DNA of 64,000 nt from Chromera velia (Eukaryota; Sar; Chromeraceae), in contig JAHBMJ010004761.1 in assembly GCA_018398765.1 (NCBI GenBank), forward strand, positions 62,001 to 126,000. The letters are read 5' to 3'. Below are positions 8,583 to 35,100 of this stretch, in pieces; the stretch's first letter is position 1; each line of letters starts with the position of its first letter. The notes under the pieces are model-generated. The model did no database searches. It was given only the letters and a program-made list of their open reading frames with translations, and was not told the DNA's origin. A program made the translations under genes and the position numbers.

Positions 8583-8673
8583 TGAGCTTTTTGTTCGACA
8601 GTCTGGCATTATAGCCTGAGCTTTCTGCTCGACAGTCTGGTATTATAGCCCGAGCTTTCTGTCTGGCAGCCGG
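8583..8673. repeat. Short tandem repeat of a 34-37-base unit
   Basis: About two and a half units of gagctttctgctcgacagtc followed by tggtattatagccc are present. A diverged set with the core aagctttttgct occurs about 1 kb to the right (9573-9665). Confidence 0.65.
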
Positions 8674-13700: not shown

Positions 13701-15487
13701 GAGAGGAAAAGCGCAGCACTCTAGAGGAAAAGGGCGTCCTCCGATGCCTTCCCTGCGCGCACGCAGTGAGTGGAAGAAGAGCTTCTCGGGAGAGCAGTTT
13801 CAAGAACCGTCTGTAAGCATACACACTCATGCAGGGCCAAGCACTGCATTCAAATCCAGTGGTAAGATCAAGCATGTGAGGTGGTCCCAAGACTTATCGA
13901 CTGACCCTGTCTACGATCTCAGTCTTGGCGCCCTTTTCCAGCAGCATCCGCACAATTTCCTTGTCCCCCCTCTCCGTGGCAATCCAGAGGGACGTTTGTC
14001 CTCTTCGAAGGTCCTGCACACATACATGGCCAGTCAGATATGCGGTGCATTGACGGCATGCAAAACATCACTTGAAGAGAGTGAAATCAATCGATTCCAA
14101 ACAAAAATGGCGTCCTTCCTGGATGATTGCCCTCAGTCGCAGAGGAACGTATGCCAAGCTAATCACCCCCCCAATCTCAGAACAAAAAGAGAGAAAAGGC
14201 CATCTGAGCATTGACTCACGTTTTCGAAAACCTCAGTGTCAGCCCCCCTCTCCAACAGCATCTCCACAATCTCCTGGTGGCCCCTCTCCACGGCAATCCA
14301 CAAGGGGGTCCTCCCGCGGGTCTGCACACACACAGCCATGGCAAGTCAAGCTCAAGAGAGTGTTCTGAACTCCGTGGAGCTGCTTCAAGTGGAGCAGAGA
14401 AGCGCTCGCTCCCCCCACATGCAGTCAATTGGAGTGTCGTCACCAATACAGGAGATCATGCCGTCGAGCTCACTTGATTCAAAAGCAATCATTCTCACAT
14501 CTGTGGACAGACGGTTTTTTTGAAACCAGAACAGCAGTCTGCTGACAGAGGTACCCCGAGATACGGACAAAGAATCTGACGATGCGAGGCCTGACTGACC
14601 CTGTCTGCAGCCTCCAGATTCGCCCCTATCTCCAAGAGCATCTCCACAATTTCCTTATGGCCCCTTTCCGCGGCAGTCCACAGGGCCGTTCCTCCCCCGT
14701 TCTGCGCACAGTCGGCCACAGAGCGGGTGGGGCGCATTCATCGGCTGCTTCCAAGTGTACGAACAGAAAGGGCTGCAATGGAATGGCGTGACTCCGACAA
14801 AAAGAGCAGCCTTCCACTGCCTCATTGCATGCGGTCAGTCACAGAGCTAGTTTGAAAAGCATGTGCAGGAACACACAAGCTCGTGCACAGTCAATACAGC
14901 GAGCATTGGGAGATTCACAGACTGACGGACTCACTGTGCCGACTGCCTCAGTGTTGCATTCATTTTCATACAGCGCTCCTTATTCTGTTTGAATTCTGAA
15001 CGAAAAGGAATGCATGGACTCACTGTGCCGACTGTCTCAGTCTTGGCGCTCTTCTCCAACAGCATTTGCACGATTTCCTTGTGGCCGGCGGCTGCTGCGA
15101 CCCGCAATGGCGTCACTCGGTTCTGCACAGAGAGAGCCCGTCACAAATGCAGCGAATTAAACTGCATTCTTCATGATATAAAGTCCTGACTGCCCGTCAC
15201 CGCCTCTCTGAAACCATGCATTCAGTCGCAGAGAAACATGTCATGACAGGACTTTCATGACCTCCAACCAAAAATGCCGAGAAAGATAGTGCTGGCCTCC
15301 GGTACACAGGTAAGCTGGCTGACTCCGTCTGAGGCCTCAACGTTGGCGCCATTGTCCAACAGCATCCTCACAATCTCCGTGTGACCCCTCTCGACCGCAA
15401 CCCACAAGGGCCCCCTTCCTTTGGACTGCATACAGACAGTCAGTCAGTCAGCCAGAGAATTAGTGCGATGAGTTTGCATGGGACAGT

Positions 15488-15539
<52 letters not shown>

Positions 15540-15575
15540 GAGACAGACAGAGAGAGAGAGAGACAGACAGAGAGA

Positions 15576-15621
<46 letters not shown>

Positions 15622-18600
15622 CACAGAAGGAGAGAAGGGCAGAGGAGAAGGAAACAGGGACAGAGAGAAACAAAGAAGAGGAACGGCGGGAGAGAGAAAA
15701 ACAGACAGGAAGATCGACAGAAAGACATATCCTGTAACCTCCGCTGATAGGTTTGACCGTCGCCAAGCACGAACTCACGTCTGCAGCCTCAATATTGGCG
15801 CCCTTCTCCCAAAGCATCCTCACTATTTCCTTGTGACCCCTTTCTGTGGCAATCCGAAAGGGCGTCCTTCCGTCCTGCACACTCAGCCGCATGCGGAAAA
15901 TTTTGGACCACGACTGGCCGAGTTTTGTTCAATCAGCAAAACAATTCACAGAGCAGAAATCCGGCGAAAAAGAGTTTCATTCCACGTCGTCTCGACAAGC
16001 ACACAGTCACTGAGAAGAGTGTTCAAACTGCATTCCCAAGAAAAAAGAACAAGATATTCACAGGGAGGGACCACGAATACCTCCGAGAATGAATGAGCCT
16101 TTGAACTTCAATCACTGACTCACTCTGCCTTCTGTCTCAATCTCGGCGCCCTTGTCTAGCAGCATCATCAGTATCTCCTGGTTGCCCTTGTCGGCCGCCA
16201 TCCATAAGGGCCTCTCTGCTGTTTCGAAGACCTGCAGATAGGTGACCACAGAAAACAAAAAAAGGCCTCTCTGCTGTTTCGAAGATCTGCAGATAGATAA
16301 TTTACAGCAGCGCACACAGGGTCAGTGGAGCTCGGAGCGACGAGGTGTGACGAAATGTTCTGTCCGACCATGGCGCCCATCAACACACACTCCGAGCCGT
16401 GGAAGAAAGAGTCCATTTTCCACAACACCAAACTAAGTGAAGCAGACCCTAGCAAGGCTCCTGTCAATTGAGAAGCCAGTGCAAGCTGCTGCTCCAAACA
16501 CACACTGATCAACTCACACTGTCTGTGATCTCAGTGTCCGCGCCCGCGTTCAATAGAATCCTCACAATCTCCCTGTGACCCTTCTGCACTGCAATCCACA
16601 AGGCCGCCCGCTTTCCGGGCTGCACACAATCAGTCGCAGAAACGCGCGCACACACACATACACATACACACACACACACACAGAGTGGGAGGGAGAGAAA
16701 GGAAGAGCAAAGTGAAGGAGAGATAGAGATATTTAGAGAGAGGGAGAGTCTGAGAGACCCTGTATCATTGCACCTGTGCTTTCCTTTTTTCGAATATCGC
16801 AGGACAAACGGACTTTGTCTCCAGCATTCGGCTTCGCGCCCTTCTTCAGCAGCATCTCCACAATATCCTTGTGGCCATTCTCCGCGGCAACGAACAAGGG
16901 CAGCTGTGCGGCCAACCTCTGTGCGTAGTCAGTCAAAACAGGCGGAGGAGTGTGCAAAAAGGTACAAAGGTCACAGAAAGATGAAGGGAGGGAGGGACTC
17001 AGGGGGAGAGAGGCAGAGAAAAAGAGATGGAAAGTGAGAGAGCCCAGAAGATACCCCCTCCCCACCCCCCAACCCCCCCACCCCCAGAGGGAGTGAGAGA
17101 AGGAGGGAGGGAAAAAGGGAGGAAGGGAGAGTCTCAGAGACCACACTGCACATGTCAGCCATGCAGATGCTCTTGACAGTCTCAAAGGAAAAACTGACCG
17201 AGGCAGCCTGCGGATCGGCCCCGTTCTCCAACAGCATCTCCACAATCTCCCTGTGTCCCCTCTCAGCAGCACTCTGCAAGGATCCCTCGAACTGCACACA
17301 GTCACAGATGGTCGAGGAATCTTTTCGCTTGATTTGAAACAATATTCGACAAACATAGAGAACAGTTGAAGATCAAGTGAAGGATTAGGCAGGATCCAAC
17401 AGACAGGGCTGCAGGACCAGGAAGAGCTCACCTCAAGCTCAAGGGGCCCCCGACGGAACAACCCGCACAGCAGCAGCCTCACCGCCCGCTTGTGCCCCAT
17501 CTCAGCTGCCAGGACTAGAGCGGTCTTCCGGCCCACAAGGCTTTCCTGAACGCACGAGAGAGGGGATGCAGGCAGACAGGGGTGCACTCATCTCTGTCAA
17601 CCCGCGCGGCTTGATAGAAGAAATGAGGCAAAAAGCAAAGGCACAACGCAGAGACCACCGACCTATCACCCGACACCCGCACTCATTGCCCAGAAGATCC
17701 TTCTCTTTCCCAAAACAGAATGACCGACTGGACAGAAAGCCAAAACAACACGCAACTCTTCGCTGATCCAAAGGAGCAACAAATTTCAGAACCTGTACTT
17801 ACATACATTTGTACATTATACGTGAATGGCCAAAAAAAATACCTACCACTTCTCCATTGATGTCTGCACCTAGCCAGAGCACTAGGCGCAGATCGTCCCC
17901 CCTCCCCGTCTGCATGAACTTCCTCAGGGCTGCTTGGAGAATGGCTGCCGATATCTGCACGTTCGGTCGCACGCATCCATGCATTCTCAGATAAACCCAG
18001 ACTCACGTGAAAGCATGTACCTTCTCTGTGAATGAATGCAAAGGCGAATACAAGTGCCCGTTTTCAAAGTTTACACGAAGAAACGAGGGGGAGTTTTTTC
18101 GGTGACTGACTGGTACAGAGCGATAGCGGTTGGCAGGAGCAGAAAGACAATTTTTTTTTGACTGGAAGGAAAGAAAGACAACAAAAGAAAGAATGAATGA
18201 ATGCATGAAGGAAAGAACGAAAGCTGGGAAAGAGGAAGAAAGGAGGAAAGGAAAAAAGGAAAAACTGAATGAACCACAGAAGCTGCTCATACTGACAGGT
18301 TGAAAGCGCCGCACATTCTTGGCGATCATCTGCAGGGAGGGGAAACCAATCGTATATCCATTTGTTTTCATACAGAATTCTTTTTCATACAGAAAATAAA
18401 TGCAGGGAGGGGAGACCAATCGCACATGTAATATCACTTGTATGTAGCCTCAAAACAGGCAGAGAAGCCATGTATTTATATCAGACGCTGGTGTACGCGC
18501 AGTTGACGGTCTGTCTTGAAATTCTCTTCTCTCTACCTGGACGTTGCGTGCGCCATGCAAGACACACTCTGAATGCTCGCATAGTGCATCCATGTCCTGA

Positions 18601-19391
18601 CTGCACTCACTTACCGGTGTCACCTGGAAGCGTGGCCTTGCCCCCGTGTCTGTGCTGGTGGCGGCGGGTCCAGTGCCAGTGTTGGCCGAGGGGGGAAGCC
18701 AAGGCCCTGGTGAGTTGGTGAGGGGCGTTCCTCTCAAGTTTCCTCTCTGATGGCTTGGCACTTTCGTCCCCGGGGCTCTGCCTTTTCTCCTGGTGTCCGT
18801 GGAGATTCCGTTTGATTTACCGACTGTCAGACCGAATATAGAAGCTCCCTCTGTCCCACCCACTGTCGCACCAAAAGCAGAAACTCCCTCTGTCCCACCC
18901 ACCGTAGGACCGAATATAGAAGCTCCCTCTGTCCCACCCACTGTCGCACCAAAAGCAGAAACTCCCTCTGTCCCACCCACCGTCGGACCGAAAACAGAAG
19001 CTCCCTCTGTCCCACCCACTGTCGGACCGAATATAGAAACTCCCTCTGTCCCACCCACTGTAGGACCGAAAACAGAAACTCCCTCTGTCCCACCCACTGT
19101 CGGACCGAAAACAGAAGCTCCCTCTGTCCCACCCACTGTCGCACCGAATATAGAAGCTCCCTCTGTCCCATCCACTGTCGGACCGAATATAGAAGCTCCC
19201 TCTGTCCTACCGACTGTCGGACCGAAAGCAGAAGCTCCCTCTGTCCCACCCACTGTCGGACCAAAATAAGAAAACGCAGGATGAACAGGACGGAAAGAAA
19301 GTTCTTGTTTTACCAAATCGGACTTTTCTGGGGCTGGAGTGCTCCCAGCAGCAGGAAGAGGACTCGTATCCTTTCCTTCAAGACCACTCAT
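10411..19391 (-). CDS. Ankyrin-repeat protein with one repeat per exon (24 exons, about 1086 aa)
   Basis: Exons, 5' to 3': 18615-19391, 18297-18329, 17847-17954, 17432-17545, 17199-17291, 16814-16918, 16518-16619, 16124-16231, 15779-15874, 15324-15425, 15024-15122, 14600-14701, 14220-14321, 13906-14013, 13524-13625, 13292-13393, 12938-13039, 12733-12834, 12441-12536, 12096-12197, 11731-11829, 11377-11478, 10927-11040, 10411-10701. Every junction is phase 0, with CAG acceptors and mostly GTGAGT or GTCAGT donors. Exon 1 (259 codons) carries about eleven 13-residue repeats (FGPTVGGTEGVSV). Exons 2-3 encode a cap: VRRFQP, then ISAAILQAALRKF and a GDD...LGADINGEV segment shared with two other genes here. 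Exons 4-23 each encode one ankyrin repeat of 31-38 residues, consensus TPLWIAAERGHKEIVEMLLE then KGANIEAAD. The last exon begins with half a repeat and reads on to a stop at 10411 through an unused GTGAGT, so its end is uncertain. No enzyme domain is seen; a scaffold or protein-binding role is inferred. Confidence 0.8.
10708..10745. repeat. CA microsatellite in the last intron of the ankyrin gene
   Basis: About 18 CA units directly upstream (in transcript sense) of the last exon's acceptor at 10702. Confidence 0.9.
14927..15045. repeat. Tiny palindromic insert flanked by duplicated exon end (ankyrin exon 15024-15122)
   Basis: The 30-base copies at 14927-14956 and 15016-15045 match at 28 positions and cover the donor and 3' end of an ankyrin exon. 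Between them lies a 59-base insert that, with the flanking bases, begins TGCATTCATTTTCATACAG and ends GAAAAGGAATGCA, i.e. inverted ends. The same leader occurs in inserts at 18353-18400, 33375-33444 and 34386-34410. Confidence 0.7.
15488..15620. repeat. GA/GACA microsatellite in an ankyrin-gene intron
   Basis: Long GA runs interspersed with GACAGACA, in the intron between exons 15779-15874 and 15324-15425. The tract creates long spurious Arg/Glu open frames on the plus strand. Confidence 0.95.
16209..16296. repeat. 33-base duplication of an exon acceptor region with a 22-base spacer
   Basis: Positions 16209-16241 and 16264-16296 match at 32 of 33 bases. The left copy holds the first coding bases and CTGCAG acceptor of the exon 16124-16231. 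The second copy lies upstream in the intron and carries a second acceptor, so an alternative 5'-extended exon is possible. Confidence 0.75.
16640..16735. repeat. CA and GAGA simple repeats in an ankyrin-gene intron
   Basis: CA units at about 16650-16682 are followed by a purine-rich GAGA tract to about 16745. Confidence 0.85.
18331..18424. repeat. Tiny palindromic insert flanked by a 22-base duplication upstream of ankyrin exon 2
   Basis: The direct copies start at 18331 and 18401 (tgcagggagggga then accaatcg, one mismatch). The insert between them contains CATTTGTTTTCATACAG and ends GAAAATAAATG, again inverted ends with the shared TTTTCATACAG core. The left copy contains the acceptor used by exon 18297-18329. 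Confidence 0.65.
18820..19267 (-). repeat. 39-base coding minisatellite, about 11.5 units
   Basis: The units encode FG(P/A)TVGGTEG(A/V)S(V/I/A) in exon 1 of the ankyrin gene. Because 39 is a multiple of three and the unit lacks stops, the opposite strand is also open (a PTVGPKTEAPSVP frame), which is taken as a shadow. Confidence 0.9.
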
Positions 19392-19649
19392 TTTTGAATC
19401 AGACGGAAGACCAGCTCTTCGTGGGCGCCAACTTCTTTACTCTGCCTTAACAAGGTCAGACAAACACAATCGGTCTAATGAAGATATATTTGACTCCAGA
19501 AACTCGCAGAATCAAATCGAAGTCTTGACTTCAGGCAGCTGTGTAAGTAGACCAACAACTGATTTTTCGTCGAAACGTTGCGAAATCTCCAGAGGCGACA
19601 AGTCGACGACACGACAAGGATCAATTATAGACACTGAGTCTGACTCGAT

Positions 19650-19775
19650 CCCCATGCATGCATGCAGCCAGAGTGCATGCATGCGGGGCCCCGGCATGCC
19701 GGCCGGGCCCGGCGGACAACAAAATTCGCGGGCCCGCGCGCGCGGACGTGCATGCAAACATGGCGCATGATGGCC
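19650..19775. promoter_or_regulatory. GC-rich GCATGC island upstream of head-to-head ankyrin genes
   Basis: CATGCATGCATGCAG, GTGCATGCATGC, GGCATGCCGGCCGGGCC and CGCGCGCGCGG palindromes are packed in about 125 bases. The island lies 260 bases upstream of the minus ankyrin start (19391) and about 900 bases upstream of the plus paralogue (20678). It is a likely promoter element by position. Confidence 0.4.
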
Positions 19776-20677
19776 ACGAAAATTGACTGAGGGTTCGTAG
19801 ATGCATAGCACGTCCCAGCATACCGGCCGTTAGTTCGCACGGTATTGGGTATCGTGCCTAGGCCAGTTTCTTCCTAATCTACCCTAATCTATCTACCCTT
19901 AGTTTTTGACTCTGCCTGCCTCTCTATCACGTTTTTTTTTCCTAGTTTCTCTTTTACATCAACTTCAATCGCCCCTGCCGGCCGGAAATTGACCCGGAAT
20001 CACTTAACTCACTCTCAAGCAACAACTTTTCATGAAAATTGCCGCAAAAATCGCTCTTATGCAGTCATTATGATGATTGAGGGTTTTTTTCATGTATGCC
20101 GCGTCCCTATATATGAGAAGCGGATCTAACCTAGTTTGTCAATTTGTTCCGTCCTACGACTACCAGCGATGAAAATAGGCGTAACTTCGATCACCCTGAT
20201 ACAGCTGATCAATCGCGGCCTCACAACAGGTTGGACAATCAAAAGAGAGAGAAAAGAGACAGAGGGGATGCAGGGCAGAACCTTCGGATGCAGTCATCAC
20301 CATGCATGCATGTTATCATCATGTCATCATCTCTCGATCAAACAGTCATGCAAATTAAGTCAGGCACAATATAATACAGTCATGGCACAGTCAGTCGATA
20401 GTGGCCGGACTGGAAAACTCCAGTTAGAATGGTAACGTTCGAGTTAATTATTATTAAGTAGGATCGATGTCCATTTTTGCCCGACTCTCACACCGCTGCT
20501 GGCTTCGATCAAATCTTCAGTCTGACTACAGGCGCTCGACAGAGTCTATACATTTCCGATTGGCAGGTTTGTGCAATTGATGTAGCAATTCATTTGAAAA
20601 GGAGTCTTCCTACCATCTCCCTACTGGCTCCCTTTGTAGTCGGCTGTTTCTCCTAATATTTTGAAATCGACTTGAAA
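19776..20677. other. Intergenic, 5' flank of the compact ankyrin gene
   Basis: No coding exon is recognised. Scattered GCATGCATG (about 20301) and a palindromic ATATATGAG-type stretch are seen. Confidence 0.5.
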
Positions 20678-22298
20678 ATGGAGGAGACGGCTGTCAATCC
20701 TCCTCTAACCATCGAAGCCTTTCTCCAACGTCTCAAAACGTTGAGGGCCTCTGTTGTCGCTGATCTTGACTCCGCCTTCGAGATTATCGAAAAAACTTTG
20801 AGGGTGAAGGAGGGACACGAAAATGCAGCAGCAGCTGCAGCCGCACCCGCGACTATCCCATGTGTTCAAAAGGAAGATGTCGCTGTTCTTGATGCGGTGA
20901 AGAAGGCTGGGAGAGAAATGATAAGGCAGTTGGAAAAGGTCATATACAGGCACTTTGAAATTGATGTGGGTTTGATTAAATAATTGAAGTGGGTGTTAGT
21001 AAAAAGATTCGCGAGTTACGACCTGTGTCAGCAGAGACCACCCAGAAGGCACTGTCTAATTTCATCAGCGGTGCCAACAATGGAGATGTGTCTGTCCTCG
21101 AGACCTTGGAAGGGACGGGTAGAGAGTTTTCGCAGAACGTGAAAGGGCAGCTGGGGGGGGTGATCAGCAGACACGTTCGAATTGATGTGGGTTACCTTTA
21201 CGAGCAGAGCATTAGCGATGTCATCCATGACTTTCAACCAGTATCCCCAGAGACCACTCACCGCGCACTAGCTGACTTTGTCAGTGGTGCTAGCGGCGGA
21301 GACGACTTTCGTCTCTGCCTGAAGGCAGAAGCGGATATGAACGGACTTGTTGAGGGTCAGACGGCTCTGATCAAGGCCGTGTATGCGAACCACACGGAAG
21401 CTTTTGAGACAATCTTGAGTGACCATCTGGATTTGGAGGTAAGGTAGGGCAGGTCTCTGCAGACACTACGGGTATGGTGACTGGCGACACGGCTGTGATC
21501 GTTGCCAGTCGTCAGCGTCGGTGGGAAATGATTCGGTCCCTGGTTGCAAAGGGGGCAAATGTGGATATAGTGGGACGAGATGGCAAGAAGGCACTGGAGG
21601 TTGCTTATGAGGCTGCAGGCCCGCAACTCGACTCTGTTTTTCCCTTTGACAATCCTTTTAGACTTGACTACGACCTCCAGAACGGTGACCCTGCAGTCCG
21701 CTCTGCTGTGAGTGAGGCTCTGAAAGACCTCCTCGCAAAGACTTCCGATGTGGCTGATCTAAAGATCAGCGCTCAGAAGGATTTTGAAAAAGAATCTCTC
21801 GCTCATTTCTTTTCCTGGTATGAGTTTGAAGAATTGTTGCTCTTGTCCCTCTCTAGGGGAGTGGACATCGATGATTTCGATGAAGACAGGTGGACAGCGC
21901 TGATGTACAGTTCAGCGAGGGCCAGACCTCAGTATGTGCAAATTATTTTAGACAACGGGGCCAACGTCAACAAGTCAAACGGATCGTACACTCCACTCAC
22001 CACCGCTATGTTACCCGCCATTGATAGAGATGAGACTTCCATACAGTCTGCGCTAGAGGTGTGTACAATCCTCTTTGATCGCGGTGCTAATGTCAATTCT
22101 CGAGTTTTCCAGGGGGACACCGTCATTCATGAAGTAGTACGGAGTGGTGTGACGGAGTTTGTGCGCTTACTTGTTGAGAGAGGTACTGACGTGCAGCTGA
22201 CTGATAGATCAGGCCAGACGCCTCATGATCTGGCTGTTCAAAGGGACAGCTCTACGGAGATAGTAGCTCTTCTGACGCCACCAGCTACTGCAAATTGA
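20678..22298 (+). CDS. Compact ankyrin-repeat paralogue, nearly intronless (about 528 aa)
   Basis: Segments 20678-20969, 20990-21438 and 21453-22298 join into one frame if two very short GT-AG segments (20970-20989 and 21439-21452) are removed; otherwise they are two frameshifts. Start is the ATG at 20678 (METAVNPP after MEE). Residues 1-150 contain two diverged copies of a helical module, LRPVSAETTQKALSNF and FQPVSPETTHRALADF, matching the cap of the two exon-rich ankyrin genes (FQP then VS/IS...AL). A GDDFRLCLKAEADMNGLV segment follows, then about six ankyrin repeats, e.g. GDTAVIVASRQRRWEMIRSL and DRSGQTPHDLAVQRDSSTEI. The gene stands head-to-head with the exon-rich ankyrin gene. The lack of ordinary introns suggests a retrocopy or lost introns. 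A decaying copy cannot be excluded, but 846 bases of the third segment are fully open. Confidence 0.6.
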
Positions 22299-23118
22299 AA
22301 ACTTTTTTAACATAGTTTTTCACTTAAATTTAACGATCATCATCATAGTAATCATCAATGAATTATCATCGTAAAGTTGAACGGCGTGAACTTCTAGACT
22401 GCATAACCAGCTGCATAAACCGAATGAAGAATGTATATTAAGTTTAATATATTGCTAGATATATATCGTAACTAGTATCGTAAATCATTATTATGTTTTA
22501 AAGGGTGGCCTTGAGGGCAGCAGGTTTTTGAGTCGATCATGCTAGTGATTCGACGTGTGCTCTAGCATGCGCTGCGTAACTTGATTTTATAATAAGCCTA
22601 TAGCTGGTATTAACTTCAGCTTCATCACCATTATGACAGACACCATACATATGTATAGGCTTCATATTTATATATGTTTTTTTGATTCAAATTTTAATTT
22701 TTGATTAGCATGACAGCGCCTTTTTGACAAGTACAGATGTATGAGGTAGTAACAAGTACTACACTAGTAGATTCTAAGTCAACTTCGCCTGAGGTCTGAT
22801 TCTCTTACTGCATGACTCAGCACTGGATTCAATGTAGGATTCAACATCCAGTATAACAATGGCAAGTCTAGTTAGCAAGTACAGTCTGTATAGATAGGAC
22901 AGCATACGATAGGATTAATGTCTGGAGGATTGGCCTCCTGTCCCAATGCCGAGAGATAAATAACTACTCTGACAGAAGTTGAAGCCCCGGTGGCTTGAGA
23001 CGCTGCGTCGCTGCCTTCCTGCAAACCTCTATCGCTTGGTAGATCGCCCGCTCAGTTTTCATGGAGGTTGACTCAGACTAAGACCTGCATACCTAGCGCT
23101 GCTGCAGTGAGCCAACCA
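22299..23118. other. AT-rich intergenic gap between convergent genes
   Basis: No coding exon is recognised. It holds the short LINE-end fragment at 22912-22955. Poly-T and ATATAT stretches near 22440-22690 may include 3' UTR and termination signals of the upstream gene. Confidence 0.5.
22912..22955 (-). mobile_element. Fragment of the LINE 3' end
   Basis: The 44 bases starting aggattaatgtctggagg match the 3' UTR block of the LINE at 4711-4752 with few changes, in the same orientation. Only this end can be aligned, so it is a very short 5'-truncated copy or a remnant. Confidence 0.55.
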
Positions 23119-26100
23119 TCACCGAAAGATGCGGAGACTCTTCAACTTTCCTTCTGACCGAACCCTTTCTCTCACGCTTTCAACATGCCGAGCAAACCTC
23201 TTTCCCTCCTCCCTGCCCTCGAACCCCTGCTGTCCCCCCAAAGACAAATCAATCAGACATGGAAGAGCCTCAGGGCTGAGGGTGTCAACGAATGCCGTCA
23301 GCCCCTCAGGACTGATTTTGTTCAAAAAAAGATTCAAAAGTCTCAATTGAGGGCACCCATGAGCACAAAACACCTCTGCCAACCTCTTCAATCTCTGGTC
23401 GTCAATCTCGCAATCACACAGAGCAAGGTCTTTCAAGTTGGACAATCTACCCCCCGACGATCCTCCCCCACTACGTGCAAGCTTCACTAATGAATCCTCC
23501 CCCAACCGCCCTCCCCTGAGGTTCAGATGACCAACGCACCACGGAAGTCCCTTTTCACTTTCCGAAATGGCACTGATCAACCTATCAACATCAATTCCCT
23601 GTGCACCCCTAACCAAACGAAACCCCAGCCGACACAACCCCGGAGGAAACCTCCCCGCCCTCACAGCGTCCGACAACCTCTGCACCCCCCCATCATCAAG
23701 TTCAAAAGGCACAGTCCCATCCTGGAACAAATTGGGGCGCAAACCCTCGAGCGACGGGAGCTTCCCCGATCCGAGAACGGTTGCCAACGGTCCCCCTGCT
23801 TTTTTGGCTTCCGTGTCAATGAGATCGAGTCTCTTTAGAGACGGCAGACCGTCCTCATTCTCTGCAATGGCTTCAAAGAAATATTCCCAAGACTCCCCCT
23901 CAACCTGCTCGTTGTCACTTAACTGAAGACTAGAGACACCCACCAGACACCCAAATCTAACTGCATTTGCAAGTGACCCTACAGCCAGGTTGGTCAGACC
24001 AGACTTTCTCAACCCGATCTCCACCAGTTTCCCCAACTTACCTGCCAACAACGCGGCACCAAGAAACGGAACAGATTCACCGGCTGATGTATCTGACAAA
24101 TCCAATTCTCTCAAATTCGGCAGTCCGACTGAACTATCAGACATCGAACGGAATAAATCCGTCCATGCAGCAGAACCAACATCTGCCCGCCACATACCGC
24201 CTCCATCAGCATTCTCCTTCAAATTCAGACAGGAGACGGCAAGAAGCGCACCTTCTCTCACAGCCTCTGCAAGGCCCCTCACACCCGCCCCACTCAGACA
24301 CGAACGACTCAAATTGACGACAGAAAGCCGTCTCAAATTTCCCGAACGAAGAGCCCAACCCAACGCCCCTGCCCCCCTCCCTGCATTCGTTCGAGAGAGG
24401 TTCAACTCCTCCAAATCATGCGGGCTTTCCTCACTCTCAACAACAGCATTCATCAGATTACTCATCTCTTCTACCTCAATCCCCCCCACACCCCACCCGT
24501 TCGCATTCCAATGTCCTCGAAGATCGAGCACACGCAGTCGGGGCAAATTTCCTTTTTTCAACGCTCCAACCAAACATTTCACTTCAGACCGAACTAATCC
24601 AAAATCGACAAGAGACAAGACAGACAGGCGAGGAAGTTTTTGGTTCCTCAGAGCTTGGAAGAAACATCCTCTTGCTTCTGTGAGAGCAGGGATGGCATTC
24701 CCCCCCCGAATCTTGATCTTTCGGATAAACCCCAAACGACCCTTCTCTATCGATTCTCCGAGAAGCTCTAACCCCTCCCTCCCTGCATTTGCCTCCGGCT
24801 CCTTCAAATGCAAACAAACGTCGAGAGCCTCAAGCACAGGCTTCTCAACAGACAGAGGGGACTCTGCCAAAGCTCGAAGAAAGGCCGGAACCTCTGCAAG
24901 CCCCAGCCCAAGTGTTCGAACAGAAGGGTACCACCCCACAGCCAGTGCACGCAGATGTCTCGGGTGCACATTTCTCAATCCTATCTGCACATGCTCCAGA
25001 GGGCGCATATCTCTTTCGCCCGAAATGTCCAAACGGACAATTCCGAGAATCGCTACCAAATCCTCACCCAACAAAACCGAATTTCCAAACAACATGCTGC
25101 CCGACGCAATGCCTCCCTCTGACATCAAATTCAAATTTCTCAAATGAGGCACATTGTTTTTTCGCAGTGCCCTGCCAAAGGAGCGAATCGCGTTGTTTGA
25201 AGCGGAAATACCCGACCATTCATTCCCTTCTAAGTCCAGAGTTTCTAATTTTGGAAGTCGTCCCGCCTCAAGCACATGGGCAACCGAGTGCATCTCTGCC
25301 CCTCCAAAACCACAATTTCTCAACACCAACACACGCAAATGTGGAAGTGAGGCAACGGACAGAACAGGGCACAGCACACTCATTCCAGAGTTCGATAGAT
25401 CATTCTGGGAGAGGTTGAGGGTCTCCAAATGAAGCAGGGGTGTCTGAGTAATGGCCTTGCAGATTATCTCGAGGCCCTCCTTGTTCAGACCTGTCCTCTC
25501 GAGGTCGAGGGTACGGAGGGACGAAGCATGCCCCACCCGGAGCGCCTCCGCAAGTCCCCGGAAACCAGCAAGACCGAGCAGGTTGCCTGAAGTGAACAGA
25601 AAGAAAAAAAGAAGGATTGAGGGAAGAAATGCAGGAAGGAAACAAAAAGTGGATGAATAAACGAAGGCAGGAACGAAAGAAAGAAAGAATGAGTGAATGA
25701 ATGAAGAAATGAAGGAAACAAGTAACCGAGGAAGGAAAGAAAAACAGAGCGCCATCTATCAACAACAAAAGTCAAAAAACAAAAGGAAAAACCGCAGAAA
25801 AATCGATTGATTAGGCGGGGAGTAGTCACTGTCTTCTTCCATCCTCACTCACTGACCCACCCTTCAACGACAGGGACTCCAGACAGGGCAGCAAGAGAGG
25901 GAAGATCCTGGGGGCCTCGGGAGGTCCCATGGAGTTCTCTGCAGAATCGAGAAGCGAGGCCTGTCATCAGTTTTTCCGATTGTTTGTTTAACAGGTTCGG
26001 ACAAACAGAAACGGAAAAAAAAGAAGAGTGATCCTTCCCTCCACTGACCTCCAAATACAAAGCTCTGGAGCCGCATTTGCGTCACCTTGCCTCCTTTTCC

Positions 26101-26897
26101 TCTTGCCTGCTTCCTGACAGACTGCAGTCGTTCGAGAAAGCGGAGGAAGCGGGGGAGAGCGCGTCCTCTCACAGCGACAGAATCTGCACACACAACAGCA
26201 AGCAGGTAACATTTTCTTCTCTCTGAACCCCTCTCCTCTCTCCGATCGGATCATATGGTAAGAAAATTGGGCGAAGAGGAAGGCAGTCATACACACATAG
26301 AGGTAGAGAGACAGACGAAAAGGCAAACACGACGCCGACAGGCAAGTAACTGGACAGGAACACGACCACGGACATTCCCGCTGCGCGTCTTCTCTCAGAT
26401 ACTCTGGTGCTGACAGACAGACCAGAGCTTTCTTGCACGGAGGGCAGACGACTTTTTGTTTTGACACTCACCCAGAATGATCTCCTTGACAGAGGAGGGA
26501 AGGGACTCCAGGAACAGAAAAACCTTCGCCGGCGATGTGCCGACGTCTGAACCTGCAACAAGGGAGGTAAACCGAGCACAGAGAGAACTTGAGAAGAAAG
26601 GCGAACCGTGGGGAAAGAAAAAAGATGATGACTGCTCTTCATTTATTTGCGGCCAAAACTTCCAGAGGACCTTCGCTTGCTTGAATCTGTGACGACAAGC
26701 CAAAGTCACCAGAGAAGACAACAACAGTTGAAGACAGGGGGCGCGGTTGTATCTGTGGTCTCTTTTCTTTCGAATTCAGTTGTGCATGTTTCCCTTCTCC
26801 TTCCCCAGAACTCTCTATCAGTTTGAGTTTTTGTCACCACCGTAAGTGCCGAGACGTGAAAGTGAGCTTGTCTGACTGTAGAGAAAGAAGTGAATTT

Positions 26898-26967
<70 letters not shown>

Positions 26968-27548
26968 TTTGTCTCGATGCTGGACCCACCAGAGAGGTCA
27001 ATACTGTCCGGGGGGTCTACGGATACTTTCCCGAGTGTTTTGTTCTGCAGGACAGAAAGAGAAATCCAGGGTGACCATGACGCGAAGAAAAGAGAAGGGC
27101 GTGGAGTGTCGAACAGAATCGGCACAGGAAGATCTGGCTCCGGAAGGGTGTCTTCTCGAGAAAAAACGACAGGCGCAAAGCAAATGCTAAGGGGAAGTAC
27201 ATACATGAGGTCGCTCTCATTTCAATTCCCTCTCTCTTCTACTCCCGTCTCCACACCAAAGACTGGACGAAAAGAGGATTAACGTACTTTGTTGAAGAGG
27301 GACGCGCACAGCCACGCAACTCCGACAGAGTCCTCGTGCTTGGCGAGGTCAGAAAGCGTCTGCATGCATGAGGAAAGGAGACGAACAGCATGAAGTGACA
27401 CCGTTACCATCTGGAAGGTGAGATGGAGGGAGGCGAGCAGAAAAGGAGGAAGCCCTTTTGGCGTCGACGAGCGGAAAGAAAGGATGTTCGCTTGGACGCC
27501 GTTGGATTTCACAAGCCTCTCAGCACAGTCAGACACAGTGGCAGTCAT
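23119..27548 (-). CDS. Leucine-rich-repeat protein, ribonuclease-inhibitor type (about 1009 aa, 7 exons)
   Basis: Exons: 27408-27548, 27288-27359, 26990-27044, 26472-26552, 26049-26183, 25861-25938, 23119-25586. The sum is 3030 bases, exactly 1010 codons. The start is ATG at 27548 (MTATVSDCAERLVKSNG). The later introns are all phase 1. Residues about 180-1009 are RNI-type repeats of 28-30 residues with LRTLDLERTGLNKEGLEI, LETLNLSQNDLSNSGMSVL and LRVLVLRNCGFGGAEM patterns. The junction of exons 6 and 7 rebuilds a continuous repeat (LESLSLKGN then LLGLAG), which strongly supports it. A hydrophobic open stretch upstream of the last acceptor (to 25755) is intron read-through, not protein. No NACHT, kinase or membrane segment was seen. 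Protein-protein binding is the likely role; the specific function is unknown. Confidence 0.8.
26901..26966. repeat. CT then GT microsatellite in an LRR-gene intron
   Basis: About 16 CT units are followed by about 17 GT units, in the intron between exons 26990-27044 and 26472-26552. Confidence 0.95.
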
Positions 27549-29135
27549 CCTTTATCCGAAAAGCAGGACACACTGATTGGCTTACAAACAGTAAAGGATG
27601 AGGAGGAACCCCACCCCCCAAAAGAAAATGCCCACAACGGAACTCTGCGCCCCCCCCACGCTCCTTCGTGTTCCAATTGAAAAAAAAGGATCATTTGAAA
27701 TGCATGTACAGAGAAAAATTAAGCATCTCCCCTTACCTCAGAAGTGAGTCTCAAGTGCTGAAGGAGGACAGAGAGGCCCTGCCTGCTCTGCTCTCCTTCC
27801 GTCTCAATTTGGGCGGTCTGCATTTCAAGTCGTTGAAGGCAAAACGGGAGAAGGTGTAGGTCCAAAACCGTCAGTATATGCTTCGATGCTCTTCTGGTTA
27901 GACCAGTGGCAGCTGAATGCGGCAGAGATCAACTCAAGCGGGAAAGCCCCGTGAAGCTTTGACGAGAGAAAGTCTCGGACGAAAGAATTGAGAGTCTCAG
28001 GTTGGATCGACAAAGACCGCGCGGCAGATCTGTGTGGACGTCCCTGCCTCAGACTTCTGCTGAAATGCTTGTCTTAGCTACAGCAGCTGTGTTGCTGTCT
28101 GCTGGTCACCTGGCACTTGAGGACATCAAGGAGAAGATGGTTGTGTAGGTGTCCGCTTTGACATACCGATCGTTTGAAATCTTTTGAAAGATTTTGAAAG
28201 CTGCCGAGACGGCAAAAATCGGCAAAATGCACGGCACAAAAATTAGCAGATCTCTTGGCTGGCGGGCGGCCGCGCGCGTCCGCGCGAAATTTTCTGCCCA
28301 TGCATTGAATCTGACGCACGCGAAGCATGCGCATAGGCCGGAAAGCGAATTTTCGGGTAGCCGAGGTCATCGGCTCAAGCCCCTACAGCCTCACTTTTTC
28401 ATCCAAATTTATGAGGAAATTATGCAAGCTTAGCCACGTGGTCCCAATGCAGTTGTTTTTAAGTGTCCCATAGAGTTTCGTCTAGAGTTTCGCTTTCTGT
28501 GCTATTAGCCTAGTATTAGGAGTGATCAAAAGTATTATTATCCTAAAAGAAAACCTAGCTTTGATAAAAGAAAGCTTCCTATCCTTTATATCTTGGGTTT
28601 GCAAAAAACTTGCGTTATTCCATTTGTATCTATATTTGTTTTCTCATTCGATGATCATCATTTTTTTGATTTAGGCATCACCTCAATATTTCACCTTAAT
28701 GTTACTCAAAATTAGCCTTGAATTCTTTACATCTTTTTTAAATACACTGACATGTACCGAAACGTTGACAATTCTGTCCTTTAAAAGTGTCATTCTTGTT
28801 GCTATCCCCGGTACCCTGTAATCCTTGTTTTGCTTCTTTTTTTAAATGAACAATATTCATACACTTTCCCCCCTTTTCAGAAGATGCTGCGGAGAAGAGA
28901 AAAACAAGCCACAAAGACAACTCTGGCTCGTCACTACTCGTCACTACCGTTAATCCTCCACGCACTCACATGCAACGCGGCTAGAGTCTAAACAGTTCAG
29001 TGTCCTGTATTCGTTCCAGACCAGCCCCTCCCCCCCGCCCCCCGCCTATGCAGATCTAGTGGGACAAAAAAGCGAACGAGAGACGTCAATCCCAAGTTTC
29101 GGCCCCGTCTCCATCTGGCCAAGCAGACCACCCCC
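27549..29135. other. Intergenic gap between two minus-strand genes
   Basis: No reliable exon was found. The right part is AT-rich (28440-28900). A GC island at 28250-28345 lies about 700 bases upstream of the LRR gene start. The 3' UTR of NAA15 must lie just left of 29136. Confidence 0.5.
28250..28345. promoter_or_regulatory. GC-rich island upstream of the LRR gene
   Basis: GGCGGGCGGCCGCGCGCGTC, CCCATGCATTG and AAGCATGCGCATAGGCCGG are present. Composition matches the islands between head-to-head genes, here serving at most one recognised gene. Confidence 0.35.
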
Positions 29136-32100
29136 TCAGTCCTCACTCAGCTCCTGTCCCCCCGTCACCCTCACGATCTTCAAAACGTCAGATGGGTCCC
29201 GGAACGCATCTGCGTGCGGAAACCTCTTGTGGCAGGCCGCCTGCACCGACACACATAGATCCAGGCAGAGAAAGGTCAGGGATGGGGACAACCAAAGGAA
29301 TATGAAGTCTCCGGGAAAAACAAAAAAGGAAGGTGAACCAAGAGAACAGAGAAAGAATGCAAAGAAGAATCAAATTCAAAAAGGGACAAAGTACAGGATG
29401 AGACGGAAGAAAGGGAGGTCTTGGGAAAGAAAGAAACGAGGGACGGCTTCGATTTCTGCAAAAAAGACAGGAAAGGGATGGCAAAAGAGATACGACAAGA
29501 GGCAGAGAAGAGGCACAAAATCATACTTCAGACTCACCAAAAATTTATCTGCTGCCTCCTTCCATCCCTCTGTTTCTTTCAGGAAAGCCAGGGCTCTCTT
29601 CGCTTCCTGCAGAACGAAAGGAGGGCATAACGAAGCCGTCAAAGAAACGGAGGGAGGGAGCGGACCCGCCGGGACAAGCAAGACAGGGAAGGAAAGTCAG
29701 AGGGTGGGTAGAGGAACTCAGAAGAATAGGCACGTGCATTGCATCTGGTCGGAGCCAGACAAGAAAAAGAAAAGCGCACATTCCCACTTCCCCCTCTCTC
29801 CCTCACGGTCAGTGATAGAAAATTGTTCACGATTCCAGATGCTATAAAACATGCTTTGCACGAACTACCTATCTGTCTACACTTATTGAACGAGACCGGG
29901 TGGTCCAAGAAAGACCTTCTCCCCTCCGCAAGAAAAGAAAGAGCCGGATACTCTCTTCTTCGCACAGACTAGACGTCTGACCTTGATTGTCACCGTCTTC
30001 CCCTGCACCGCCTTCCCTGCAGCCTCCAGAAGTGCCCCCTCCTCGGACGCGCCCCGACTCCCTGCAGCACACCGCGCCCTCATAGCTGCACACACAGGGA
30101 ACAAAGAAAGAGTTAAAAAAAATCAGGGATAGAGGTTAGAGGTGATTCTCAAAATTCAGAATGCATTGCACTTCCGTTTGGACGCCAAATGGAGGCAATG
30201 CCCGAGAACTGCATCCTGCTCAAACAAAGTTCCCGATCCCCTTCACATTTCTCTTCCCTCCCACGCCCCCACCACCCACCCGCAACGATTTCAGTCATCG
30301 CTCCTTCCGGACTTTTCACAACGGCAGCCTTCAGGTCCTCCGCCGCTCTCTTTCCTTCCCTGCGCACATCTGCCTCACTCGAGACTTTTGCCCCCGAGAT
30401 TTGGGACACCTGGGACAGGACAAGAGATCTCAGGGCTCCGGAAAGCGAAGAGGAAGAGGACGCACTGGAATTCGACCCCGCCGCCTCTTCCAGAGAGACT
30501 GCAAGGCCACAACGAAAACAAAATCAGTGGGCGGTACATACAGAGAAAATAAGGTACAGAGACAGACAAGACAGTGCGGACAAAGAGGAAGTCATTTGGC
30601 AAATGTACAGGGCAGGAAAGTACAAGTTAAGTCGTCTCGACCCCATTGTGTGTGCCCTCGTTCACGTGTCCATTGACCTTTGCACCTCGCATAACTTATC
30701 ATCAAAAAAATGGAAGAATCGACGGACCCGTACTGCAGAAGTGTGCAAAGCACGGCACAAGTTTATAGAAGAGCCGTCTCCTCCCCCCCAATTCCCAGAG
30801 ACGCACGAGGGACTTCAGTTGGAGCAAAGGCCTCTCTTCTCCTGCACACAGACAGCGACAGACAGTGGGTGCATGGGGGTCGCAGGAGCAAAGGGGCGGT
30901 ACAAGAATGAACAAGGGCGGAGAGACCATATGCAGACAATGCGAACCTAGAGGAAGAAAACCCAAAGAGTGAGAGGGGGCGGTATGGGAAAAGTCTTTTT
31001 CTGCGTCTCTTCTCTAATAAGCATTTTTCATTCAGTCCATTCGCGGACTGTCGCTCTTTCGACGCACGCACCTACCTTCGACAGAAAAGGCCCAGTAGGC
31101 CGTTTTGTGTGAATTCGGGTCGAGTCCGCAGGTCGTCTGGAGTTTGACTGCGATCTTTCGCGTCTCCTTGAGGTCTTCTTCCGCGGATTTCGTCAGAAGC
31201 TTGGAGCCTACGGGGAAAGGGAGGATGCGGAGGGATGGTGTGTCACTTTGAAGTTAAGCGAACGGAGGCGCAAAGATGGACTCACTGCAGCACTTGATAG
31301 AGAGAATGTGCTTGTCTGCGGCCTGAAGAATGAAACAGAATTCCGGACTGCGTGTGTGGACAGACGAAAGCAACGAACGCTGGAAATAGGGTGTCAAGAA
31401 GACTGACACCTCTCCACCTCCCCTCGGAGAGAATGTGAGAGAGAGACAGAGACACGGACGGCCACACACTTATGCAGGGTGTGCGTGGGAGAGAAAGAGA
31501 GATGGACAGGAACAGAAAGAAGGAAAGAAAGAAAAGAAAGAGCCTTACCTGAAGGGTCCGTATCGACAGGTTCCTTCTTGCTCCCTGCAGCAGCGGCATT
31601 TCTTGCCTCTGCCTCTGCTTTTTGGGCTTCCTCTTCCTGCTTCTTCGCCTGCACATCGGCCGGTAAATGGAAAGGTAAAACAGAAAAAAACACAAAAAGT
31701 TCCTTCTAACTGAACAAATATGCGCCGGTCGCTTCGCCTCGGCCCTTAAACCTTCACACGTCTTCCCGCCTTTCTTTCTCTGTTCCCTTCCGCTGCACTG
31801 ATAGACGAAATTATTCACCGAGGAGGAATTGGCGTTTACAAGGCAGATTCCAAACCTCTTAAAGCCAAGCTCGCAATCAGTCAATAGAGATTTCTTGAGC
31901 AGTCCATGGACGACCATACTGACAGAGCAAGCCGAATATGCGGAATGTGCACACAGACACCCATGCTCAAAGACCGCGCCCTCGCTGACCTCTCTTTTCT
32001 TTTGTGCCTTCAGTTTTTTCTTCTCTGCAGCGCTCATTGCTACCCCAGTTCCCCCATTCTCCCCCTCTCCTTGCCCCGCTCCCGCTTTCCCTGCTGCATC

Positions 32101-35100
32101 TGCCCTCGCAGCTGCATCCTTCTCGGCATACAAACTGAGGAAGATCTTGACAACAAATTTTGCGGCATGACGAAATGCCCTGCAGCAACAACAACACGTA
32201 CAGAAGTACACCAGAGCGCAAGAACAAACCAGAGCAATGAAGCGCGCCCAGCAAGTCAGAAAAAGTTTCGCGCAGCTGAAAAAAGTCAGTCTACTAACCC
32301 CATGAGCTCAAGGTTGCAAGCAGCATGGAAACTTTTTGCAACAGGCCAAACGAAAAGTCAAGAAGTGAAGCGAAAACGAGCCTCTGCAAGCAAAGGGACG
32401 AACGAAACATTAATGTCCCATCTGTCTGCTCTGCCCTCCCAGCCCTTGTTTCCTTTCCCTTCCCTTCCCTTCCCACCTGTGCGAGTGGATTCTGTCCATC
32501 ATTCTGAGTGCCTGCACATAGGAGATGAACGCCCCCCTCCTCAAGCAGTACCCATGGAAGTCGTATTGGTCCTCGAGGAACTCTTCGAAGTGGCGCAGAG
32601 TCGCACACAGCTGCTTGAGGGAACGCCCTCGGTCGCCCTTTCGAAATTCAGCACGACCAATTTTGTTCTCGAACCTGTGGTCGGTCCAGGAGACAAAAAA
32701 AATGTGTGCGAACACACACACAGGCAGACGTTAAAAAAAGACCCTACAGGTCACTCAAATCTGAAGTACAGGGAAGGCAAAAAAAGTAGAATCCATTCTT
32801 GAGGCGTGGGGAACAGGGGCAAATGTACGCGCAGTTTTCGAATCACTGCTCGGAGACTTGAATTCATATTTCCAGAGGAACAGAGAAAGCCCGAGACTCA
32901 AACACATTTTTGAATCGGCAATGGGAGCGTCTGTCCAGTTTGTGTGTTCTCTTGTTTTTGCCTTCCGTCCCTTGCAGATTCCTTTCTGTCTGACCCCCAA
33001 CCAGACACAGAGAAAGATGCAAATAAGCAAACAAAAACAGACAGAAGAAAGAGCCTACCAGAGCGTTTGCATCTCATGAAAATTCGGTTTTCTGTCTCCG
33101 GGGAAGAGAGACGCCGTCGCCTCTGCCTTCTCAGTGTCACCTTTCCTGCACACCGAATGAGAGAAAAACAAAGGAAAGGGCAACAGGAGAAAACGAAACA
33201 AACAACCTCCAGAAGAGAAACGAACAAGTCTGAAGACAGACCCCCAATACGATAAGTTTCCTGCCCCCAAAAGATTCCACAGACACACAAACCCAAAATG
33301 TTTTTGGTCGGGTGTCCCCCCCATTCCCCTCCCAATATAACCCAAGCGCAAAGGAGGGAACACGAAACAAGGACTTGCATTTATTTTCATGCAGAAACAT
33401 AAATGAAAATAATCCTGAAAAATAATTCTGTGTGAAATTAAATGCAAGCGCAAGGGAGGGAACACGAAAAAAGGACCAACCTTGCGAGGTATGCGGCACT
33501 CTTCGAGTTGACGTATTTGTCTGCGAGGTCAAGACCTGAATTGGAAGCATGAAGAGAGAAAATCAACGACGCGCCAAGAGAAAGATGAATTCGAGAGGGC
33601 CCTCTGCCCTTTGTTTGGTGAGAGACTCAAGTGCGCGCACATGCACCGATACACAAATCAAATCAAGCAAACATCTGCAAAAGGGAAAGAAGAGATTCTC
33701 TGTCGTGTCCACAGGGAGAGTGAAAGGCGAGGGACAAAAGATTAAGTCAGGAGCATTGAGAATTCCCCCACCTCTGGCCTCCTCAAAATATTCCGACGCC
33801 ATCACCTCTGCCCCCGCGTGTTTCCAAATTCTTCCTGCGACGCAGTAGAGCTCTGGGAGGGTCGGCGTGTGCTCGATGGCCTCCTGCAAGAGAAAAAAAG
33901 CAAGTCGGTATGTGTTTTCTTTCTATGATGCTTTCAAACCAGAGAATGACGAAAACCAGAAGGACGCTACGAACGAATGAATCAAAGACTGAAACGAAAG
34001 TGAATAAAAGAGAAGGACAAAGGGAGCAAGCACAAGAGGAATTGGAAAAGAGAACGGCGACGCAATGAAATGACCCGTGAGAAAAAAAGAAAGACCCACA
34101 CCTCTGTCTGCCTGTTTTGGTATGTATCTGTCTGTCTGTCTGTCTCTCTGTCTGTCTGTCTCTCTGTCTGTCAATTCGTTTCTCTCTCTCCCTTTCGCTT
34201 TCCCTCTCTCTGTCTGTATGGGTCTATGTGTGTGAGGAGAGAGTGGCAGACACGCAGCTGAGAAACCAAGAAAGGAAACCTCGATGGACGAAAACAATCG
34301 AACAGAAACACAAGAACGTACAGAGAGAGCATTGTGTCTGACCGAGATTCGTTTTGTGGCCTTATCCGTCTCCCCGATATGGTCATGCGTTTATTTTCAT
34401 ACGTGAAATACTGACCGAGATAAGTTTTGTGGCCTTGTCCGTCTCCCCGATATGGTCAAAGTGCTGAGCCGCCAAGGTGAGTGTGAAGGGCAGAACGATT
34501 GGGAGTTCCCTCCCTCCCGCCTCTCCGTTTGTGTCGTCAGGAGAGAACCTCTCTTCGGCCCTCAGACAGGAGAGGTACCCTTCGAGGATTTCCGTCACAA
34601 TGGGAATCTGCAGAGAGGGACCAAAGACGGAGAGTGTGTTGTTTCTCTTTCAGGGAGAAAATCCCAATGAGAAGCTGGAAGGAAAGGGACGGGAAGATAG
34701 AAAAGGAGCTTTTCGCTGCGAACTGGATAGGAGACCGCAAGAGACAGGTCGCATTAAATAAAACCAGGAAATGGACAGAGAAACACACCGAAGATTCTTG
34801 TTGGAGGCCGAGTTACTGTCCACTGATTTCGTTCGCTCCCCACCGACCTTCTCAGGACTGTAGAGCGATTTGACGACGGCGAAAAGAGACGGAATTCCTT
34901 TCCGAAGTCCAGAACGGAGAAACGAGTCAAGACTGCAAAGACAGAAACAAAGGGACATAATCGAGGACGAAAGTCAGAAACCGACGGGAACCGCATCGCA
35001 TCACACAAAACAGAAGAGCCCAGAAAAGAAGGGACCGCGCGAGAGAAAGAGAAAGAAAAAAGGACAGAAAAAGGCAGCAGCAAACGGAAAACAACTCCTG

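Follow-up and report, generated by a model that had tools for sequence, protein, structure and literature searches.

Palindromic-ended micro-inserts between long host duplications recur throughout the genome of Chromera velia

The genome of Chromera velia was confirmed to contain a real, genome-wide family of palindromic-ended micro-inserts. Their outer ends are shared, their interiors are barely more alike between loci than shuffled sequence, and they did not pass as any of the known kinds of mobile element against which they were tested. We propose, with a probability of roughly 40%, that they represent a family of palindromic repair patches laid into long staggered breaks all over the genome. 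The observations bear on an open question, the growth of introns and the source of new splice sites. By a rough estimate from six unselected clusters, the genome seems to hold thousands of doublings of host sequence around a tiny insert, often with a splice junction, and the sites that look recent could be tested by comparing strains. Should the patch reading be true, repeated sequence enters genes without being a self-copying element.

The stretch of DNA in which the inserts were first noticed, here called the window, comprises 64,000 nucleotides (G000:C3608:62001-126000) of an assembly of 177.8 Mb in 4,040 contigs. Of two protein families searched for with a view to the host's identity, Photo_RC gave no match and IMCp (alveolin) gave 11; the latter family also scores in the Caulobacter control. 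In this genome the leader TGCRTTTATTTTCATACAG was matched 1,904 times with at most two mismatches (949 + 955), against 3 times (0 + 3) for the reversed control, and a sister variant with ACTTT 891 times with at most one mismatch (428 + 463; control 0 + 0). An initial sequence-only reading of the window had taken the leader for the mark of a family that should recur above chance, and these counts bear it out. They took in the leader and the ACTTT sister, may overlap slightly with one another, and give end matches rather than inserts, because two ends may belong to one insert. Flanking sequence that had not been chosen for inserts (169.5 kb) contained six further clusters at up to three mismatches, about 35 per Mb; scaled up, this gives about 6,000 genome-wide, a figure that is rough with only six events and comes from flanks that adjoin chosen inserts. 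No described family with the leader was known to the sequence-only reading. Three strings of the arm and its palindrome appeared in no paper of the searched literature, a body of text outside which most subscription journals lie. The insert family is undescribed in the available text of two of the papers that concern Chromera velia together with introners, transposable elements and introns, or MITEs. A search of the window against Rfam gave 0 matches.

Within the window the leader occurred five times with at most three mismatches (at 14955, 18357, 33376 and 34386 on the plus strand and at 33428 on the minus strand); shuffled windows gave a mean of 0.01 matches and 0 of 100 shuffles reached five. 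The four inserts proved to lie where they had been placed from the letters alone, each between direct repeats of host sequence, and three of them carry an inverted end, the one at 34386-34410 being without, also as described. The first, at 14955..15014, has inverted ends TGCATTCATTTTCATACAG and CTGAACGAAAAGGAATGCA that are 84% complementary. It separates the two copies of a 30-nt host duplication (93% identity): a distal copy at 14927..14956 with a GTGAGT donor core inside it on the minus strand, and an exon-proximal copy at 15016..15045 that contains the end of an ankyrin-repeat exon, identified by homology (Ank, E 3.1e-5), together with its minus-strand GTGAGT donor. The second insert, at 18353..18404, lies between 18331-18357 and 18401-18427 (27 nt, 89%), within which a 22-nt core is 95% identical. 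The core copy at 18331..18352 adjoins a CTGCAG acceptor on the minus strand, placed by eye without homology; the distal copy is at 18401..18422, and the insert end GAAAATAAATGCA at 18392-18404 has TGCA in common with this second host copy.

The other two inserts lie in a gene for the auxiliary subunit of NatA (NAA15-like), an exon of which was recognised by homology (Pfam E 1.1e-8; PDB 4kvo E 2.5e-10). The third, at 33375..33446, has inverted arms at 33374-33396 and 33426-33448 (87% complementary) and is bordered by 33334-33374 and 33436-33476 (41 nt, 85%), with a 32-nt core at 94%. The distal core copy is at 33343..33374, and the exon-proximal one, at 33445..33476, lies four bases from a minus-strand donor at 33477-33480; the homology of the exon beside it is weak by itself (E 0.32). 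The fourth insert, at 34386..34410, has a single recognisable arm and parts a 48-nt duplication (94%) into a distal copy, 34338..34385, and an exon-proximal copy, 34411..34458. The latter consists of the final 43 nt of an NAA15-like exon followed by the intron sequence GTCAG on the minus strand, so that normal splicing would be expected to yield an intact exon and to leave the insert in the intron. Homology thus backs two of the proposed host genes, ankyrin and NAA15-like; the insert at 18353 is without a homology-placed exon. A fifth duplication, which the sequence-only reading had not listed, lies at 16206..16296, where 19 nt that lack a clear arm are enclosed by two copies of 36 nt (94%). 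It overlies a CTGCAG acceptor belonging to the ankyrin gene and is a putative relative of the insert family.

The anatomy of the duplications was determined in 70 loci and the window (352,716 bases), the loci having been taken from exact leader matches in contig order rather than drawn at random. Once repeats of one site had been removed (eight loci: L003, L010-L013, L018, L025 and L029), 62 loci and the window remained. By a threshold test, 68 of 77 leader sites (at most four mismatches) have a flanking direct repeat. Among the near-perfect leader sites (at most one mismatch) 48 of 53 sit between direct repeats of host DNA, while of 3000 positions chosen at random outside the inserts 202 passed the same test; flanking duplications elsewhere in the genome, as anticipated from the window, were thereby established. 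Four of the five strong sites below the threshold have 13-16-nt exact words on both sides of the insert, which 5% of random positions show as well, and L061 has none. The nine leader sites without a duplication by threshold and two of the 68 segments, longer than 75 bp, were left out of the following counts. At the 66 sites so defined the length of the duplicated segment ranges over 17-72 bp, with a median of 41 bp and a median identity of 95%. Eleven of the 66 pairs are still identical, and some events therefore look recent. The inserts have a median length of 61.5 nt (5th-95th percentile 33-102; 66 sites), and their G+C content averages 26%, that of the segments 54% (58 sites). Segment borders match TGCA weakly (12 of 58 against 4.6), and beyond this no fixed target motif was seen at these 58 sites, the border test having left out eight of the 66 as array neighbours or for short context.

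It might be asked whether the arm and the long duplication always go together. A 253-kb scan returned 37 structures of segment, gap and segment; the gap contains an arm in 26 of them and none in 11. Of the armless ones, two lie in a coding repeat array and one inside an insert. Two armless duplications are located at splice motifs, namely 16206-16296 of the window (acceptor) and one at L043 (GTGAGT). These cases hint at long duplication as the general event, one commonly patched with the arm; alternatively, armless duplications could contain arms that have decayed. The window also has plain tandem duplications without any insert, at 37311-37390 (41 bp, 2.0 copies, 92%) and 8583-8661 (34 bp, 2.3 copies, 91%), which possibly stem from breaks of this kind that were closed with no patch. 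For the insert at L002 no insert-free site was found. At L008, three other places match segment and right flank without a gap (73-87%); these are paralogous exons, not alleles.

The inserts themselves are alike at their ends and not in their centres. Interior pair identity has a median of 0.46 against 0.45 in shuffles and a 99th percentile of 0.72 against 0.67, as measured in 43 interiors (43 of 63 inserts kept, after omission of three of the 66 longer than 120 nt and of those shorter than 54 nt). The small excess is made up of pieces of the arm itself: 305 of 781 interior nucleotides fall in arm 9-mers against 4.3 in shuffles (34 inserts), a figure that includes some arm remnants because insert borders are inexact. 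The portion derived from the host flank is small (42 of 1044 nt in common 10-mers against 4.7 shuffled; 38 inserts), and folding of the interior by itself is not distinct (mean -4.6 against -3.2 shuffled, sd 6.4). The two arms of an insert co-vary. Over the first 12 nt they differ by 1.23 mismatches within inserts and by 1.70 between inserts (43 inserts), a value as low as this being reached in 0 of 5000 permutations, and the effect fades over 23 nt (p 0.11). Both arms of one insert thus come from one source. In 16 of the 66 inserts a second arm is unrecognisable.

An element that spreads by copying should have close sisters of its young copies. The insert of L002, on contig C5, looks young, its duplication of 51-55 bp being perfect, and its best other full-length match is 84% among the best 26 candidates scored. 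That of L024, older to judge from a duplication with only 90% identity, has one tandem copy at 100% and elsewhere at most 85% among the best 24 candidates scored; as only the best candidates were scored in both searches, a closer copy could have escaped.

Codon-usage gene finding was tried for locating exons and dropped, as the long open frames were too repeat-rich for training; splice-core motif counts with random controls were used instead, together with homology. With expected counts drawn from positions within 1.2 kb, TGCAG is present in the left segment copy at 26 of 66 sites (9.6 expected, p 6.5e-7), the donor core at 14 of 66 (9.8 expected, p 0.10, not significant alone) and either core at 36 of 66 (17.7 expected, p 1.8e-6); TGCAGG was found in 17 segments against 3.2 expected. 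A splice-core motif thus occurs in about one segment out of two, some twofold over background, and part of this excess could be due to a survival effect alone. Where TGCAG has been lost from one copy (10 sites) the downstream copy retains it in seven, which says little since the gene strand is known for few of these sites.

Nine sites were placed by homology (E < 0.001): the ankyrin exon at 14927, the NAA15-like exon at 34338, an EGF exon (L008), two sites in an RPT4-like proteasome gene (L044, 4.2e-29), and one each in MTHFR (L033), histidyl-tRNA synthetase (L027), a serine-palmitoyltransferase-like gene (L065) and a HAD/P-type-ATPase-like exon (L036). All nine are at existing splice junctions, the use of the introns being predicted from sequence. 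In eight of the nine, by eye, a splice site is covered by the segment or lies at its start (less surely so in L065), and the segment of L036 is at most four bases from a donor, also by eye. These nine give no rate, since they were picked from the 66 for having an open frame that meets the segment. At L004 the segment lies some tens of bases inside an intron, by an EF-hand-like exon (E 7.9e-4).

A possible explanation for these features lies in the repair of staggered breaks. A break with long, variable single-stranded overhangs would form, and fill-in would double the host segment. A short sequence would be laid on the broken ends from a common template, either RNA or hairpin DNA, sometimes repeatedly, and the tails would then be joined. 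Because it is tails that are joined, the centre would differ each time and one-armed products would arise. Such alleles might persist if the duplicated segment holds a splice site, with the patch staying in the intron, because near an exon edge one copy of the segment still yields an intact exon. The repeat-plus-insert unit may then amplify. In favour of this reading are the armed ends, the duplications of 17-72 bp, the unshared centres, the excess of splice cores and the weak TGCA at the border, as well as the arm pieces in interiors, the one-armed inserts and the duplications with other filler or none. Long and variable duplications argue against a transposase with a fixed stagger, and shared arms against plain filler. 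Insertion of template sequence during repair, one of three origins that the sequence-only reading had offered, is the best fit, with the reservation that identical arms all over the genome would not be expected of plain filler. Against the patch reading, the co-variation of arms would be just as natural for an element copied as a unit, or else requires one template per event, and we know of no common lesion with overhangs of at least 40 nt. It is possible, though we lean against it, that long staggered breaks in genes are the object of a dedicated repair activity, which marks them with a single templated palindromic arm and makes the centre anew at every event. If so, a sequence would spread in a genome although no element is copied, and introns would be lengthened by the doubling of splice sites.

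Telomerase patches at double-strand breaks in mammals (PMC2246262) would be the closest precedent for the entry of a single templated sequence at many breaks. The available text of that report describes telomere hexamers, microhomology and, at some loci, duplication (six rodent loci, 4.6%, and four primate loci, 16%); here the arm is palindromic and non-telomeric, and a duplication accompanies nearly all strong sites. Neointrons attributed to break repair in Daphnia resemble the present sites in direct-repeat-flanked insertion at exon-intron edges and in their explanation by fill-in of staggered breaks, according to the portion of the paper available (PMC4202315). The Daphnia repeats measure 4-12 bp and their filler has no common sequence, whereas the direct repeats around 48 of our 53 strong inserts are longer and the arms are shared genome-wide. 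Intron gain by tandem genomic duplication is similar in that the mRNA can stay intact when a segment containing a splice motif is doubled, and differs in lacking an inserted repeated arm, as outlined in the accessible part of a review (PMC3443670).

A serious though unlikely alternative is a non-autonomous DNA element of MITE or introner type, with terminal inverted repeats and interiors of fast turnover, that is mobilised by a transposase acting in trans with unusually long, loose staggers. Such an element would explain the thousands of end matches, the arm variants common to both ends of an insert and the insert-free paralogous exons. Inverted ends are indeed present in 43 inserts, apart from the 16 of 66 with an unrecognisable second arm. 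Cut-and-paste transposases, however, make target duplications of short and near-fixed length, and those observed are spread over 17-72 bp around a median of 41 at the 66 sites. Nor is there a common interior: the 43 interiors resemble shuffles and the best whole-insert match was 84% among 26 scored. No longer element with the same ends was found in the 70 loci, a small sample, and no autonomous one among their nine leader sites without a local duplication. The designation 'micro-MITE' falls short on two features, the long variable duplications and the interiors not common to copies.

'Introner-like', the remaining designation, is apt as regards the enrichment of splice motifs; all nine placed sites are at existing junctions and none shows a new intron within an exon. 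In the available text of Gozashti et al. 2022 (PMC9860276), introners are highly similar introns flanked by duplications of 3-9 bp, with new introns made in exons. Both comprise short repeated inserts, rich in AT and partly with inverted ends, within the genes of aquatic eukaryotes, and the splice sites of some introner families come from the duplicated target. In contrast to them, our inserts have far longer duplications, flank existing junctions and lack end-to-end similarity among copies (judged from the same interiors and scored matches). The introner elements of Amoebophrya, an alveolate, share with our inserts inverted repeats (8-20 nt there), direct repeats at intron borders, hairpins and the want of a clear transposase. 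Their direct repeats are of 3-5 nt and no inverted sequence runs through the whole family, as far as the accessible text goes (PMC7789003), unlike the direct repeats of about 40 bp and the one shared arm found here.

Less probable again is a SINE-like origin, in which a hairpin RNA is inserted by target-primed reverse transcription and widely spaced nicks give rise to the duplication. Variable-length duplications are normal for this process and are what we observe, and the weak microhomology (TGCA) seen at one border, 12 of 58 against 4.6, would suit it, as would the one-armed inserts. The duplications nevertheless exceed its usual length. By eye, none of the 66 inserts has an A-rich or simple 3' tail; they end in an arm or in varied sequence, and their unshared interiors speak against a common transcribed body.

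Tandem arrays of the repeat-plus-insert unit, not mentioned in the sequence-only reading, also exist. The units are spaced 120 bases apart on contig C95 and mostly 55-81 on C1734, and at G000:C3687:11288-14612, where two runs hold 24 exact leader matches at 119-base spacing, the unit is now a minisatellite. The units of the L009 array contain a nearly identical insert, which suggests amplification after insertion. These arrays, with the plain 34- and 41-bp tandem duplications of the window, could be taken to favour a minisatellite-like origin, in which slippage duplicates host segments and carries an older arm along. We consider this improbable: single units start and end in the host segment, with the insert present once and the segment twice, and slippage of an existing insert with its flank would have copied the insert too; moreover, the arms recur in unrelated host sequence. 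Short-read draft assemblies can contain falsely duplicated segments, but an assembly artefact is highly improbable here, with only 11 of 66 pairs identical and the same arm sitting midway at unrelated sites.

Two minor observations may be added. The window contains, at 18819-19266, a 39-bp unit in 11.5 copies, located in a minus-strand open frame with a GPTVGGTEGASIF-like protein repeat. At L019:2527 an arm variant, TGGATTTATTTTTATACAG, is paired with a TGGATTCATTTT-type arm at the opposite end, which hints at further sister families.
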